From: a virus
DNA: 38,412 nucleotides
IMG/VR virus record: IMGVR_UViG_3300025000_000239
Span: 1-38,412 of that record
Direction: 5' to 3' (one strand)
A model generated the notes under the pieces. That model had not been told where the DNA came from and searched no databases. It saw only the letters and a list, made by a program, of their open reading frames with translations. Both the position numbers and the translations under genes were made by a program. Positions 3 through 38,412 of this stretch are shown in pieces. The stretch's first letter is position 1. The number at the start of each line of letters is the position of its first letter.

Positions 3-788
3 CCCCCCCGCCGTGAAAACAGTACCTTTGTGCTCAGCGGCTTGTTGCACTGCCCGCGCTGCGGCTCCCTGATGAACGGCATGAGCGTGCGCTCCCGCAA
101 GTCCGGACTTTTCGAGTATTACCACTGCAGCAACGCCAACAGCAGGCTCGAATGCGACGCCAAACGCATCCCCAAAGCCACCGTCGAAAACGCCATCATC
201 GAGAAGATCCTCGAATATGTACTGGATCCGCGCGTCATCCACGAACGCGATAAAGAGCTGGCGCTTTCTCAGACGGATAATGTCGAAACAGTGAAAAAGG
301 AAATTGAGCGCGTGATCACCAGGATCAAGAACAACGACCGCAAACGCGCCAACCTGGCCAACAGGATCGCTGAGGCGAATAGTCCCCCTGCCTCATTGAT
401 GGACCTGCTTGGGGATCTTGAAAAAGAGAAGATCGAGCTGCAGCAACAACTGGCACGAATGCGCTCGATCCAGAACAAGGAGACTGTGTTCATTCGTGAA
501 CCCGCGGATATTGAAAAGTTATCCAGGCAATTCCAGCGTATATTGACCTCCGATGACCTCGAGAAACGCAGATCCGCCGTTCGCCAGATCGTCAACCGCG
601 TGGCCGCTGAGCGTGATGGCAAATTCGTGCGCGGAATTGTGAGCTTCTATAATCCTACCGATAAAAAGGGTGGATTTATGCCTATGGAGCGAAGTACCGT
701 GGAGGCACCTTACCATAGGCATAAAACTTACACCTTCGAGTTCTGTGTCAAAATCAAACAAAAGAGCCGCTCTTCAGCGGCTCTTTAA
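3..788 (+). CDS. int: Large serine recombinase (integrase), C-terminal part; continues from 37426-38412 across the circle join
   Basis: This is the 3' part of the phage integrase. Its first codons duplicate the window end, so the protein reads on from 37426 with a total of about 547 residues. The zinc beta-ribbon is visible as HCPRCG, then YYHCSN and ECDAK (Cys 303, 306, 328 and 337 of the joined protein). A long charged coiled coil follows at about 375-450, the expected order for large serine recombinases that integrate phage DNA at att sites without accessory factors. The last 11 codons form the arm of a terminator hairpin. A perfect inverted repeat that may be attP lies at 675-725, within residues about 511-527. 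The C-runs at bases 1-5 differ from the other copy and are probably contig-end noise. Family assignment is firm; the attP role is inference. Confidence 0.93.
   Translation, partial: PPRRENSTFVLSGLLHCPRCGSLMNGMSVRSRKSGLFEYYHCSNANSRLECDAKRIPKATVENAIIEKILEYVLDPRVIHERDKELALSQTDNVETVKKEIERVITRIKNNDRKRANLANRIAEANSPPASLMDLLGDLEKEKIELQQQLARMRSIQNKETVFIREPADIEKLSRQFQRILTSDDLEKRRSAVRQIVNRVAAERDGKFVRGIVSFYNPTDKKGGFMPMERSTVEAPYHRHKTYTFEFCVKIKQKSRSSAAL
6..131. repeat. Terminal direct repeat, left copy (circular overlap)
   Basis: These bases are identical to 38287-38412 (126 bp), and the serine recombinase frame is preserved across the overlap. This is the usual mark of a circular or circularly permuted genome assembled as a linear contig. 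Removing one copy gives about 38286 bp. Bases 1-5 are all C and do not match the other copy. Confidence 0.95.
675..725. repeat. Perfect 13-bp inverted repeat with 25-bp spacer; candidate attP
   Basis: TTTATGCCTATGG (675-687) is the exact reverse complement of 713-725. The element spans 51 bp and is centred on base 700. Large serine recombinases use attP sites of about 50 bp in which outer inverted motifs, bound by the zinc-ribbon domain, lie roughly 13-25 bp from the crossover dinucleotide. The arms here sit exactly in that range, and the element lies next to the end of the integrase gene. An RNA hairpin without an att role is the main alternative. Confidence 0.5.
761..786. terminator. Bidirectional intrinsic terminator between integrase and lysin
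   Basis: An 11-bp perfect stem (AAAGAGCCGCT / AGCGGCTCTTT) has a CTTC loop. It lies between convergent genes and overlaps the integrase stop codon. Read on the minus strand it is followed by a T-rich tail (TTTTGTTTGATTTT), which fits the end of the late transcript. On the plus strand the stem itself ends in CTCTTTAATT. Confidence 0.85.
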
Positions 789-2360: not shown

Positions 2361-3383
2361 TCATTTTCCTTTCAGTTTCAAATAGTCTTTCATGGCGTCC
2401 AGCTCTTTCCACTCGCGGTCCTTGCTGGTGAGATCGTTGTAGATCTTATACATCTCACTCGATTTCCATCCCATCAGCTCAACGATCAGATCACTCGGCA
2501 GCCCCATCCGGGTGAGAAACGTCACCGTGTAATGTCTGAAGGCGTGTGCATACAAATTCACACCTAAAAACGCTTCCCATTCCGGGATCCAGTTCCGAAT
2601 TGTCGATGTGTTTGCTGGTACACCATCGTGCCTGATGAACAGGTAGTTGTGCAATTGTCCAGTTTGGCGCAGGATCTCCTCCCGCTCGGCCATCCACGCC
2701 GTGTAATACTTCTCGAATATTGACTTGATGATGTATTTGTATTTCAGCGCGCCGCTTTTTGTCCTGCCTTTAGTCTTGATCATTTCGGTGGTCTCGATAA
2801 AAACGCCGGAGTAAACCAGGTTATTCATGTCGATGATATCCGTCCGGAACCGGATCAGCTCACTGGCTCTCGCGCCGCTTGCAACAGCCAGCGCCACCAG
2901 GCAGGCTTCCTGGTTTCGATTAGTGTCTACCAGGTGCTGCAGTAATTGGTTCACTTGGTTCTCCGAGAGGATCGTCTTCTCCCTGACAGCACTCAACGGC
3001 ATGGTATCAATGACCTTCAGTATCGCATTCCGAAAAGAGGGATACATATCATCCAGGTACTTCTCGATGAAATTACTCATGGAAGAGAGGCAGGACCGCA
3101 TCCGGTTGAACCTGGCGGAATTCCACTGCAGATTATTCACGCAAAAATTGAAATACTCAGCGAATTCCAGCTTGCGGATATCCACGAAGAACTTATTCTC
3201 CAGGTGATCCAGCACATACACAAAGAAAATGTTTAGATCTGACCGGTATCCATCCACGGTTCCTGTTGCGGACCTGATATCCTTTTCACGCAAAAAACTT
3301 TCCATCAAGCTGATATTCTGCGGATTGATCCTCGCCATTTTTTCCGGAGTCGTGGTCACATTTCGGATCGTTGCTCTGCTCAT
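2361..3383 (-). CDS. Tyrosine site-specific recombinase (phage integrase family)
   Basis: This 340-residue protein has the full-length fold of lambda-integrase-type enzymes: a SAM-like N-terminal domain (about 25-120) and a catalytic domain. The catalytic set reads Arg172 (SGARASELIRF), a Lys near 205-209, His280-x-x-Arg283 (HAFRHY), Trp306 in the usual third His position (MGWKSSE) and the nucleophile Tyr315 nine residues later. Trp at that position occurs in active members of the family. The gene lies within the late operon between the receptor-binding-like genes and the lysin, almost without gaps (21 bp and 1 bp). This is an odd place for an integrase. A role in tail-cassette rearrangement is possible but not shown. 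AAGGG precedes the ATG. Confidence 0.92.
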   Translation of the reverse strand: MSRATIRNVTTTPEKMARINPQNISLMESFLREKDIRSATGTVDGYRSDLNIFFVYVLDHLENKFFVDIRKLEFAEYFNFCVNNLQWNSARFNRMRSCLSSMSNFIEKYLDDMYPSFRNAILKVIDTMPLSAVREKTILSENQVNQLLQHLVDTNRNQEACLVALAVASGARASELIRFRTDIIDMNNLVYSGVFIETTEMIKTKGRTKSGALKYKYIIKSIFEKYYTAWMAEREEILRQTGQLHNYLFIRHDGVPANTSTIRNWIPEWEAFLGVNLYAHAFRHYTVTFLTRMGLPSDLIVELMGWKSSEMYKIYNDLTSKDREWKELDAMKDYLKLKGK

Positions 3384-22919: not shown

Positions 22920-23338
22920 TCCTTCACCCCATACTGTTCCAATAATTGCCGGTGTGCTTCCTTCACCTCATTCCTTTTATCCACAAGGACCGCATCCGTG
23001 ATCCCATCATAATAGTCTTTCTTCCTGCCTAATTCGTCCTGGATGAACTGATCAGCAAATAACGGATACTTCTCTTCCATTCTTCGCGCCAGCCTCTTCT
23101 GCCTGATGGACTTCAGCACCTCCCGGCTCATTTCCCTTGGGAACTCCGTGATCGCCCGTACCGAATGACTGTACCCATCCCCTGGCTTCCACACCTCCTC
23201 TATCTCCATTGGGCATTGCCTGCACCCTTCCACGTTTGCCGGGACGAACACTTCTACCAGCACCTGCTTTCCATCAGGAGGATTAGTATATGGGCTGTGC
23301 CATTCTAACCTGTGAAGAAAACCCAAAACTTTTGTCAT
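22916..23338 (-). CDS. Unknown early phage protein
   Basis: This 140-residue charged protein has a CRQCP pair near residue 40 and a basic helix (REVLKSIRQKRLARRMEEKYP). The N-terminal half resembles a small beta domain (KQVLVEVFVPANVEG). I do not recognise the family. Its ATG overlaps the stop of the preceding gene (ATGA), and the overlap lies inside a dispersed repeat copy, so the start codon is supplied by that repeat. Confidence 0.65.
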   Translation of the reverse strand: MTKVLGFLHRLEWHSPYTNPPDGKQVLVEVFVPANVEGCRQCPMEIEEVWKPGDGYSHSVRAITEFPREMSREVLKSIRQKRLARRMEEKYPLFADQFIQDELGRKKDYYDGITDAVLVDKRNEVKEAHRQLLEQYGVKE

Positions 23339-23373
23339 GTCTGAGCGTTCTCTGCCGAAGCAATCTCCAACTT
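23333..23373. repeat. Dispersed repeat copy forming a stop/start junction
   Basis: A diverged copy (GTCATGTCTGAGCG...GCCGAAGCAATCTCCAAC). Read on the minus strand it encodes the end of one protein (LEIASAENAQT) and its ATGA gives the start of the next. Confidence 0.8.
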
Positions 23374-23637
23374 CTTTTCAACCGGTTTATACCTCGCCAT
23401 CAACCGCTCATACGCCGCCTGGTTCGGTGCCCAGGTACGCATCTTCTCGCAAATATCACAACGGATATCGATCGCGCTCTCGATCACCGCGATAATATCC
23501 ACTTGCGCCGGATCCTGCGTTTCGGTATCAATTGCATGCCTGTACAGCATCAACCGGCTTGAATGCTTTCCTGTTTGCTGCACGATCCCCAGCCCATGCC
23601 CTTGCGAACATCGCCATACCTGAATGTTCTCAGCCAT
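23335..23637 (-). CDS. Small zinc-ribbon-like early protein
   Basis: This 100-residue protein starts MAENIQVWRCSQGHGLGIVQ; Cys and His here with a later CDICEKMRTW may bind one zinc ion. I chose the ATG overlapping the stop of the preceding gene (AATGGCTGA); a GTG three codons upstream is possible. Its last residues (LEIASAENAQT) come from a dispersed repeat. Function unknown; place in the early operon suggests a DNA- or RNA-associated role, without direct support. Confidence 0.62.
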   Translation of the reverse strand: MAENIQVWRCSQGHGLGIVQQTGKHSSRLMLYRHAIDTETQDPAQVDIIAVIESAIDIRCDICEKMRTWAPNQAAYERLMARYKPVEKKLEIASAENAQT

Positions 23638-33280: not shown

Positions 33281-34198
33281 CTAAATGTTTTCCACTGCCC
33301 GTTCCAGGTCTTCCTGGTGGGGCATGGCATACCTGGCGGTCTGTTCGATCTTGCTGTGACGCGCCAGCTGCTGCGCAATGACCAAATTACCGGTCTGCTG
33401 CAGGATGTTGTAAACGAACGTGTGCCTCAGCATGTGCGGATGGATCTCGATTCCGGCCATACCGCCGATCTCAGCCACCACGCGCTGTACCTGGCGCTCT
33501 GTGATGCCGCCAAATACCATCTCGCCGCTGGAAACCTTCAACCAGTCCACCAAAGCGATCCTCGCCTCACGCCCCAGGGGGACATCCCCGGATTTATTGC
33601 CCTTGCCATCGCGGATCTTCACTTCGCCTTTGCGGTCACTCAGTAGCAGGTCATCAGCTCGCAGCGCGCAAAGTTCACCCACACGCAGACCCGCATACAC
33701 CATCAGCGAGATCATCGCCCGGTTGCGGATGGCCAAAAAACGCTGGTGATCACTGCGGGCGGTATTCGCCGCCTGCTCGACCCTGCGCAGGAGCTTGAGA
33801 TAATCCGATTTGTTGAGGGATTTGGGCGCGCACTTCTGCTTTTCCATCACGGGAACGCCCTGGAAGACGTTGTAGGCCGCCATGCCGTTTTCCAGCGTGA
33901 ATTGGCAGAATAACGCCAGGCTGATGCGGCGGCGGTTCCAGGTGGCAGCGGATACCCGTTCTTCTTCGGTGGAAAAAGTGAAATAATCGTGCAGGTCCTT
34001 CGAGATGATCAGATCCGCGGAGAAGGATTGCCCGGCGTGTGGCTCGAACCAGCGGCTAAATCCGCGCACGTCCGAAAGATATGCGTCAATGGAATTCTGG
34101 CTGTGCCCATGGCCGCGTTTTCCGTGGTTGGCCAGCCAGGTGCTGAATTGGTTCTCTAGGGTAGAGACTGTGGGTTGTGATTCAAAAGTTTGTAACAT
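33281..34198 (-). CDS. XerC/D-type tyrosine recombinase
   Basis: This 305-residue protein has a SAM-like N-terminal domain (about 10-110: LENQFSTWLANHG, SQNSIDAYLSDVRGFSRWF). The catalytic domain is complete: Arg172 (AGLRVGELCALR), Lys199 (DGKGNKSGDVPL), His255-x-x-Arg258 (HPHMLRHTF), His281 and Tyr290 (LARHSKIEQTARYAMP). Spacing His to Tyr is the usual 9. It is most like Xer enzymes, which resolve dimers or use dif-like sites, rather than directional integrases. With a partition set nearby, a resolvase role in keeping the circular genome monomeric is a reasonable inference. AGAGG precedes the ATG. Confidence 0.92.
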   Translation of the reverse strand: MLQTFESQPTVSTLENQFSTWLANHGKRGHGHSQNSIDAYLSDVRGFSRWFEPHAGQSFSADLIISKDLHDYFTFSTEEERVSAATWNRRRISLALFCQFTLENGMAAYNVFQGVPVMEKQKCAPKSLNKSDYLKLLRRVEQAANTARSDHQRFLAIRNRAMISLMVYAGLRVGELCALRADDLLLSDRKGEVKIRDGKGNKSGDVPLGREARIALVDWLKVSSGEMVFGGITERQVQRVVAEIGGMAGIEIHPHMLRHTFVYNILQQTGNLVIAQQLARHSKIEQTARYAMPHQEDLERAVENI

Positions 34199-36775: not shown

Positions 36776-37426
36776 ATGGGCTTTCGATTTCGTAAGTCGG
36801 TCAAGCTTTTTCCCGGAATGCGCCTCAACCTCTCCAAAAAAGGCGTTGGAACCAGTTTAGGCTTCAAGGGTTTTCACGTCTCATCCGGACCATCCGGAAA
36901 GCGCACAACCGCCTCGATCCCTGGCACCGGGATATCGTTTGTCAGCCAATCAGGAAAAAGCACACCGGGAGGAAATTCAATGGAATCTACATCCGCATTT
37001 CAACAGGCACAAACCCCAAAGGTCAAACAACCCCTGTCAACCAGGAAAAAAGTGATCATCTCCCTCGTTATAGGCGTTCCACTTGTGCTTTGCTGCCTCA
37101 TCAGTCTCATTGGAATGTCTACCCCGGAATATAAAGCCACCGCCACCGCAAAGGCTCTTGCCACTGCCCAGGCATACATCCCGACAATAACCGAGACGAA
37201 GCCGCCAACAGCCACCTCCATGCCCTCATTGACCCCCACCATTTTTGAATCCCCCACGCCCTCCCCAACCCCGGAGTGTAACTGCTCAATCGATTACAAC
37301 TGCCCTGATTTTGCGCGCCCGGCCGATGCTCAATTTTGCTTCACTCAATGCGGTGGATCCACGTCATCCAACTGGGCCGGGCTTGATGCCGATGGCGACG
37401 GGTATGCCTGTGAATACAAACCCTAA
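36776..37426 (+). CDS. DUF4236 - transmembrane - Excalibur domain protein (lysogenic cargo)
   Basis: The 216-residue protein begins MGFRFRKSVKLFPGMRLNLS, with KKGVGTSLGFKGFHVSSGPSGKRTT following, a classic DUF4236 domain (1-58). A membrane helix lies at 92-113 (KVIISLVIGVPLVLCCLISL) and a Thr/Pro/Ala-rich linker at 115-166. An Excalibur calcium-binding domain ends the protein (CSIDYNCPDF, then DADGDGYACE at 204-213). Orientation is probably N-in, with the Excalibur part outside. It lies between repressor and integrase in the lysogeny operon, so it should be expressed in lysogens; a surface change or superinfection exclusion role is inferred. AAAGGTG precedes the ATG. Confidence 0.85.
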   Translation: MGFRFRKSVKLFPGMRLNLSKKGVGTSLGFKGFHVSSGPSGKRTTASIPGTGISFVSQSGKSTPGGNSMESTSAFQQAQTPKVKQPLSTRKKVIISLVIGVPLVLCCLISLIGMSTPEYKATATAKALATAQAYIPTITETKPPTATSMPSLTPTIFESPTPSPTPECNCSIDYNCPDFARPADAQFCFTQCGGSTSSNWAGLDADGDGYACEYKP

Positions 37427-38412
37427 TGTCTGAAGCACCCTTCCCCCTCAACTCCCGCGTGGTGGCTTACCTGCGCGATTCTGGTGGCGAGGATCAGGAT
37501 CTCTCCGTTGCCCAGCAGCAGGTCTTCATCCAGGACTGGTGCATCCAAAATAATCTGGTACTCACCACCATCTTTGCCGATGTCGCCACCCCCGGATCCT
37601 CCACGATCGGTCGTGACCAATTTCGCAAGCTCATTGATCATTTCCACAACCCAGACTGCCATGATGCAGGCGTCATCCTCTGGAAGTTTTCCCGCTTCTC
37701 GCGCGATATCGACGATGCCCAATTCTACAGGGCAGATCTGCGCCGCCGCGGCTATACCGTCCACTCCATCCAGGATAACATCCCAGACACCACCGACGGC
37801 CGCATTTACGAAGCCCTCATTGACTGGATGAACAACAAGTTCCTGGAGGATCTTTCGATGGATGTCAAACGCGGTCTTCATCACCTGGTAACCACTTACG
37901 GCGCCCTGCCCGGCACCCCTCCCCGCGGATTCATGCGGGAACCGGTGGCCATCGGTTCCCGCCGCGATGGATCCCCACACACCGCCTGCCGCTGGTCCCC
38001 GGATCCTGAAAAGTGGGATCTCTGCCTGCAAGCCTGGACCATGCGCGCCCGTGGCATTTCTATCCGCCAAATTCACAAGGAATTGCATCTTTTTTCCAGC
38101 ACAAGCTCTTACACGAGCTTCTACACCAACCCCCTCTACCTCGGCGAGCTGCATTATGGGGATTTAGTCATCAAAGACTACACCACGCCCATGGTCACCC
38201 GCGAGATCTGGGATATCGTGCAGGAATTGAACCAGGCCAATTCAGCCGGGCATTCTCCCCTGCACAGGAGGACTAATGACCGCCATCCCCGCCGTGAAAA
38301 CAGTACCTTTGTGCTCAGCGGCTTGTTGCACTGCCCGCGCTGCGGCTCCCTGATGAACGGCATGAGCGTGCGCTCCCGCAAGTCCGGACTTTTCGAGTAT
38401 TACCACTGCAGC
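37426..38412 (+). CDS. int: Large serine recombinase (integrase), N-terminal part
   Basis: The first 329 residues of the integrase, continuing at base 6 of the window. The catalytic domain has VAYLRDSGG (nucleophile Ser19), DLSVAQQQVFI and VILWKFSRFSRDIDDAQFY, the conserved resolvase-fold motifs. The recombinase domain follows (GLHHLVTTYGALPGTPPRGF, YTSFYTNPLYLGELHYGD), then the start of the zinc ribbon (LLHCPRCG). The ATG overlaps the stop of the Excalibur gene by one base (TAATG), so both are made from one message. Large serine integrases join attP to attB alone and need a directionality factor to excise; no such factor is recognised here. Confidence 0.95.
   Translation, partial: MSEAPFPLNSRVVAYLRDSGGEDQDLSVAQQQVFIQDWCIQNNLVLTTIFADVATPGSSTIGRDQFRKLIDHFHNPDCHDAGVILWKFSRFSRDIDDAQFYRADLRRRGYTVHSIQDNIPDTTDGRIYEALIDWMNNKFLEDLSMDVKRGLHHLVTTYGALPGTPPRGFMREPVAIGSRRDGSPHTACRWSPDPEKWDLCLQAWTMRARGISIRQIHKELHLFSSTSSYTSFYTNPLYLGELHYGDLVIKDYTTPMVTREIWDIVQELNQANSAGHSPLHRRTNDRHPRRENSTFVLSGLLHCPRCGSLMNGMSVRSRKSGLFEYYHCS
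38287..38412. repeat. Terminal direct repeat, right copy (circular overlap)
   Basis: Identical to bases 6-131; see the left copy. It lies within the integrase zinc-ribbon coding region. Confidence 0.95.

Follow-up and report, generated by a model that had tools for sequence, protein, structure and literature searches.

The window analysed here, that is the whole 38,412 nt of a viral contig from IMG/VR, carries a perfect inverted repeat inside the 3' end of an integrase gene (int). A preliminary description of this DNA took the repeat for the phage attachment site (attP) and proposed that integration would exchange the C-terminus of the integrase, which raises the question as to whether the repeat is such a site, which enzyme acts on it, what it recombines with and what the exchange could mean for the protein.

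The int gene runs across the ends of the contig. Bases 6-131 are exactly those of 38287-38412, and from this 126-bp terminal overlap we infer that the contig is circular and that int encodes one 547-aa large serine recombinase (LSR) spanning the join, with codons 1-329 at 37426-38412 and codons 330-547 and the stop at 132-788, both on the + strand, the frame continuing at base 132. A short wrong run of C occupies bases 1-5 ahead of the overlap and so a circular genome is classed as linear by IMG/VR. The genome context of int includes portal, capsid, terminase and endolysin-like genes, which are a tailed-phage set. The lack of space around int pointed out in the preliminary description was found again on re-examination, as int and the gene before it overlap at the latter's stop codon and the following gene ends at 806, 17 bp past the int stop (788). 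A hairpin at 761-786 overlaps this stop and is terminator-like on the - strand.

Resolvase (PF00239) and Zn_ribbon_recom (PF13408) domains were found in the window integrase. PF00239 was present in 15/15 integrases of relatives and PF07508 in 14 of the 15, falling below cut-off in the window protein and in that of L002, the closest relative. The LSR alignment has an invariant S19 within a YLRDS motif, which we take to be the catalytic serine. A structure model of the LSR has long helices at 363-444, as expected for the coiled coil of this family, and its best structural matches are the LSR-DNA complexes of Bxb1, phiC31 and Listeria; with a pTM of 0.41 the packing of its domains cannot be trusted. 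Predicted domains, relatives and matches of the modelled fold together identify the window integrase as a large serine recombinase. Among the matches listed for phage isolates no LSR exceeded ~28% identity and none covered 80% of the query.

The geometry given in the preliminary description stands: the arms TTTATGCCTATGG (675-687) and CCATAGGCATAAA (713-725) are 13/13 complementary across a 25-nt spacer, making a 51-bp site at 675-725 centred on base 700. Read on the + strand as part of int the left arm codes FMPM and the right arm HRHK, the site covers codons 511-527 with its centre in codon 519, and the centre lies 88 nt upstream of the end of the stop codon. With its length, outer arms and inverted half-sites the site meets the attP layout of LSRs. 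It is the single inverted repeat in the window with arms of at least 13 and a spacer of 3-60. Markov-simulated windows (n = 100) contained a mean of 0.09 such repeats, with one present in 8/100, and on this count the repeat alone is suggestive and not decisive.

Conservation of the site was looked at in relatives. In L002, whose integrase is 78% identical to that of the window, the repeat survives because both partners of one pair have changed, from C/G to T/A (TTTATGTCTAT/ATAGACATAAA). A scan of IMG/VR with the arms only returned three contigs, those of L002, of L004/L006 (43% integrase identity) and of L005 (32%), and every repeat found lay at an LSR 3' end. The paired change in L002 and the recurrence of the arms in L006 and L005 take the repeat beyond what chance would give. 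A wider protein search for related LSRs gave 58 loci. Among these, about 20 divergent phage LSRs have a site 50-95 nt upstream of the int stop codon, and nearly all share one reading phase. Their arms, which vary together, take forms such as TTTATGYCTAT, CTGTGYCTA or GTTGCCTAT. Ten of these sites score at least 11/13 against a maximum of 10/13 in 65 control stretches, and scores of 9-10/13 are not significant alone since the control maximum is itself 10/13. L007 looks like an attL. L008 and L009, in which the right arm is missing, were considered as attL forms and rejected; the L009 contig has a terminal overlap and L009 is therefore in attP form. L025 has a whole if imperfect attP, its arms scored one base off centre, and no second prophage end was obtained for it.

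In order to see what such sites recombine with, prophage ends were sought in Chloroflexota metagenome-assembled genomes (MAGs) and tRNAs were called with ARAGORN; as all hosts are MAGs, misassembled joins are possible. Both prophage ends were located in G002 (locus L016). Its attL contains CCGTGGAGGCAC and a terminator. In its attR these 12 bp form the 3' end of a complete tRNA-Glu, after which comes the other arm, and when the two ends are rejoined TTGCCTATG and CATAGGCAA flank the core as an inverted repeat. The window core at 697-708 (+ strand) is identical to this 12-bp attL/attR repeat and tRNA-Glu 3' end, so that the shared core near base 700 which the preliminary description had suggested looking for is carried at both ends of the G002 prophage. 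Arms rebuilt from joined ends matched at 11/13 in G006 and were weak in G007 (7/13) and G001 (6/13); half-sites lying on separate prophage ends are thus seen in relatives only, most clearly in G002 and G006.

Further junctions have the same organisation, attL in relatives being a joint between int and the 3' end of a tRNA. By ARAGORN the int 3' end joins a tRNA-Arg in L015 and L017 and a tRNA-Glu in L020 and L021, and in L017 the left arm TTTATGCCTATAG runs directly into the antisense tRNA-Arg to give an integrase ending in CPRRDSNSQP. G372, G254 and G301 have more distant LSRs inside 7-8 kb elements, which are bounded by a whole tRNA-Glu and, on the int side, by a fragment of a tRNA 3' end. 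Elements with a complete tRNA on one side and a tRNA fragment on the other were found altogether in G001, G002, G006, G007, G372, G254 and G301; the window shows the core only. A whole tRNA stands at the int end in L074 (tRNA-Gly) and L082 (tRNA-Ala), and G151 has a whole tRNA-Glu ~7 kb upstream of int, with the join unresolved. In attPs with clear arms the centre of symmetry falls on tRNA position 66, numbered by hand from the T-arm, in either orientation of the core: the window and G002 read CCG-T-GGAGGCAC and L006 reads the reverse complement. Relative to int, the tRNA-Glu core has opposite orientations in attPs of the window type and of the L006 type (7513-7563 in L006), about the same centre base pair.

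Several of these loci have additional features. No attR was found for G004/L018, where the junction sequence around 11519 contains no recognisable tRNA, and the target of L018 may be a protein gene. Contig C46 of G002 has a second tRNA 3' fragment and terminator copy after attL (~23124-23391), perhaps the scar of an earlier integration. At the attR end in contig C33 of G001 (121044-121131) two tRNA-Arg fragments lie 66 bp apart, perhaps reflecting nested integrations.

What these junctions show, for the relatives, is that elements with this LSR use the site to recombine into host tRNA genes, at their 3' ends. The placement of attP within the 3' end of int was in this way borne out by the related Chloroflexota elements, not by the window phage, and the outcomes named beforehand as refuting it did not occur, no mapped junction lying elsewhere and no homologue having an intact 3' end with a phage-type tail in attL. 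As the window and G002 cores are the same, the predicted bacterial site (attB) of the window phage is tRNA-Glu, and we infer its target to be a tRNA-Glu gene in a host of the Chloroflexota (Anaerolineae type). Neither the window phage nor L002 was found integrated, and attB, attL and attR of the window phage are therefore predictions. The tRNA-Glu gene of G002 is present without prophage in related genomes with different sequence following it; no empty site with the exact G002 flanks was found in the relatives. We are highly confident that the phage's own LSR has its attP at 675-725 and a tRNA 3' end as the target, with no recombination having been measured. That the repeat is no attachment site and instead acts at the int 3' end as an RNA hairpin or a repressor operator, as a perfect inverted repeat shortly upstream of a terminator-like hairpin might suggest, is barely credible given that in relatives its halves lie apart, one at each end of the prophage, and that its centre coincides with the tRNA 3' end.

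A second alternative is that the site belongs to a phage tyrosine recombinase and that the adjoining LSR is incidental. The 3' ends of tRNA genes are the usual targets of tyrosine recombinases and the window encodes two, both on the - strand, one at 33281-34198, which in several relatives has a counterpart 2-7 kb away from the LSR, and one at 2361-3383, for which a relative was sought in other records and none found. One tyrosine recombinase lies within a few kb of the LSR in G001, G002, G006, G012, G018 and G019. However, the arms are symmetric at the spacing of LSR sites and sit inside the LSR gene, and no PF00589 match was found in G011 (the record of L002) or within the 7-8 kb tRNA-Glu elements of G372, G254 and G301. 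Their absence from G011 and from the small elements disfavours tyrosine recombinases as the agent; they seem not to be needed for integration at the site and we regard this alternative as very unlikely.

With the phage's own LSR acting at attP, recombination at or adjoining base 700 would join the 5' part of the tRNA to the phage bases after 700, and the phage sequence GGAGGCAC would restore the acceptor strand of the tRNA gene. At the other end int codons 1-519 would be joined to host sequence downstream of the tRNA. A crossover at codon 519 exchanges 28 codons, in line with the 25-30 residues estimated in the preliminary description; such an exchange is shown in the relatives and inferred for the window. 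With int exchanged at this codon the free phage would encode the 547-residue enzyme with its tail and the prophage a tailless form. The tail past attP in the window (TYTFEFCVKIKQKSRSSAAL and the stop, 726-788, + strand) is thus predicted to be exchanged on integration.

The tail has a recognisable pattern. Past the right arm 19 phage-form integrases are hydrophobic at positions 1, 3 and 5 and then have a mostly basic end, with the stop coming 9-22 residues past the arm. No permutation matched this pattern (0/20000), a count that is no clean probability because the sequences share ancestry, at a median identity of only 30%. Ten codons free of stops follow in the int frame in 18/19, as compared with 12/19 in each other frame. 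Phage forms rebuilt from prophages also match the pattern (G002 LFELTLVTKIKKK, G006 YQFTFNIIRKKY, G001 YSLPFTIKLPRKS), and a distant group that includes the G372, G254 and G301 elements has a tail of its own, I/LMVEWSxK or IMIEWSTK. At 7-8 kb these three elements are too small for a phage. An AlphaFold2 model of the L002 integrase places a beta-hairpin at 484-503, a low-confidence linker at 508-526 coinciding with attP and a confident strand at 529-537 encoded past the crossover. Prophage forms of int are without the phage-type tail, and their ends come from whatever host or antisense-tRNA sequence follows. Conserved in the phage form and lost in prophages, the tail looks selected as protein and removed by integration. 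The conserved tail of the phage form and the tRNA 3'-end target are both supported and go beyond the preliminary description, which had not foreseen the latter.

A number of individual tails depart from this picture. In L014 (~7489) and L016 (~11507) a TGA followed by CTGC comes shortly before attP. Frame and conserved tail are unbroken downstream of this TGA, which is possibly a case of stop readthrough or a recent stop. L150 has a run of nine A before attP and its conserved tail (KHSFTATVRKWQKKT) in another frame, due to either a sequencing error or a frameshift. An ssrA-like degron (SSAAL) at the end of the window integrase, of the kind known from integration-dependent immunity, was rejected as it is not conserved, L002 ending in KIKQKSQ.

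Such cases bear on the alternative that survives best, namely that the site is attP and the tail dispensable, its exchange having no effect on the enzyme and its position in int reflecting compact packing only. The TGA codons of L014 and L016, a stop in the spacer of L011 and the broken frame of L150 are what dispensability would allow, as are the arbitrary ends of the prophage forms, and the conserved int domains all precede the crossover so that the tail alone is lost on integration. However, pattern, frame and approximate length are kept across LSRs at a median identity of 30%, the tail can still be read downstream of the stops of L014 and L016 and of the shift in L150, and it is modelled as an ordered strand. 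We consider a dispensable tail a strong contender, only just short of an even call.

The opposing proposal is that int encodes two enzymes, a tailed one for the attP x attB reaction and a tailless lysogen form that is quiet or biased towards attL x attR. As hypotheses only, the tail would serve the free-phage reaction and its loss would quiet or redirect the enzyme in the lysogen. The simplest reading, itself an inference, gives the tail a role in the free-phage reaction, the activity being unmeasured; an effect of the swap on activity or directionality, as the preliminary description had raised, is plausible and not shown, and we offer the two-enzyme proposal tentatively, as possible and somewhat doubtful.

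Exchange of the C-terminus through an attP in the 3' end of an LSR gene is already known, as are rare LSRs with tRNA genes as targets. The serine integrases of ICEs that enter rumA in streptococci have their attachment site in the 3' end of their own gene and exchange C-termini on integration (PMC4701971), as is inferred for the window; in contrast, these are Firmicutes ICEs with a protein gene as target, and the available part of that account describes no conserved form-specific tail. Use of tRNA genes as targets by serine integrases has been called unknown (PMC4383910), mycobacteriophage serine integrases have been said not to use them (PMC9262239), and serine recombinases in tRNA genes have been called rare, the examples being Mycobacterium AICEs in tRNA-Leu and phage phiRSM1 in tRNA-Ser (PMC3218068). 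The latter have the combination of serine recombinase and tRNA target that is predicted for the window, whereas here many Chloroflexota phages and small elements are involved with tRNAs for Glu, Arg, Gly and Ala and the attP sits inside the int reading frame. Mycobacteriophages such as BPs have an integration-dependent immunity with attP in the repressor gene (PMC9262239) and resemble what is predicted for the window, with attP in a regulatory gene, a tRNA attB and a phage protein whose C-terminus is changed; there the repressor is cut and a tyrosine integrase acts, whereas in the window the cut would fall in the gene of the serine integrase, with unmeasured effect. The suicidal archaeal tyrosine integrases of the SSV type likewise contain the attachment site within the integrase gene (PMC8371274) but belong to another enzyme family and have the gene split into inactive parts, whereas the window integrase would lose its last residues only. 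No paper joining Chloroflexota, prophage and serine recombinase was found in the literature searched, most subscription papers being outside its scope, and the form-specific conserved strand and basic tail beyond attP are apparently new.

A broad Chloroflexota group appears to use tRNA genes with serine integrases whose attP lies inside the int frame. As attP carries the tRNA 3' end the likely host target can be read from the phage sequence; with serine integrases such prediction is normally difficult, and this could allow uncultured phages to be tied to hosts. A conserved tail that integration removes is a testable proposal for the control of recombination direction, and if true directionality control would be written into the DNA rearrangement itself, adding to or replacing a directionality factor.
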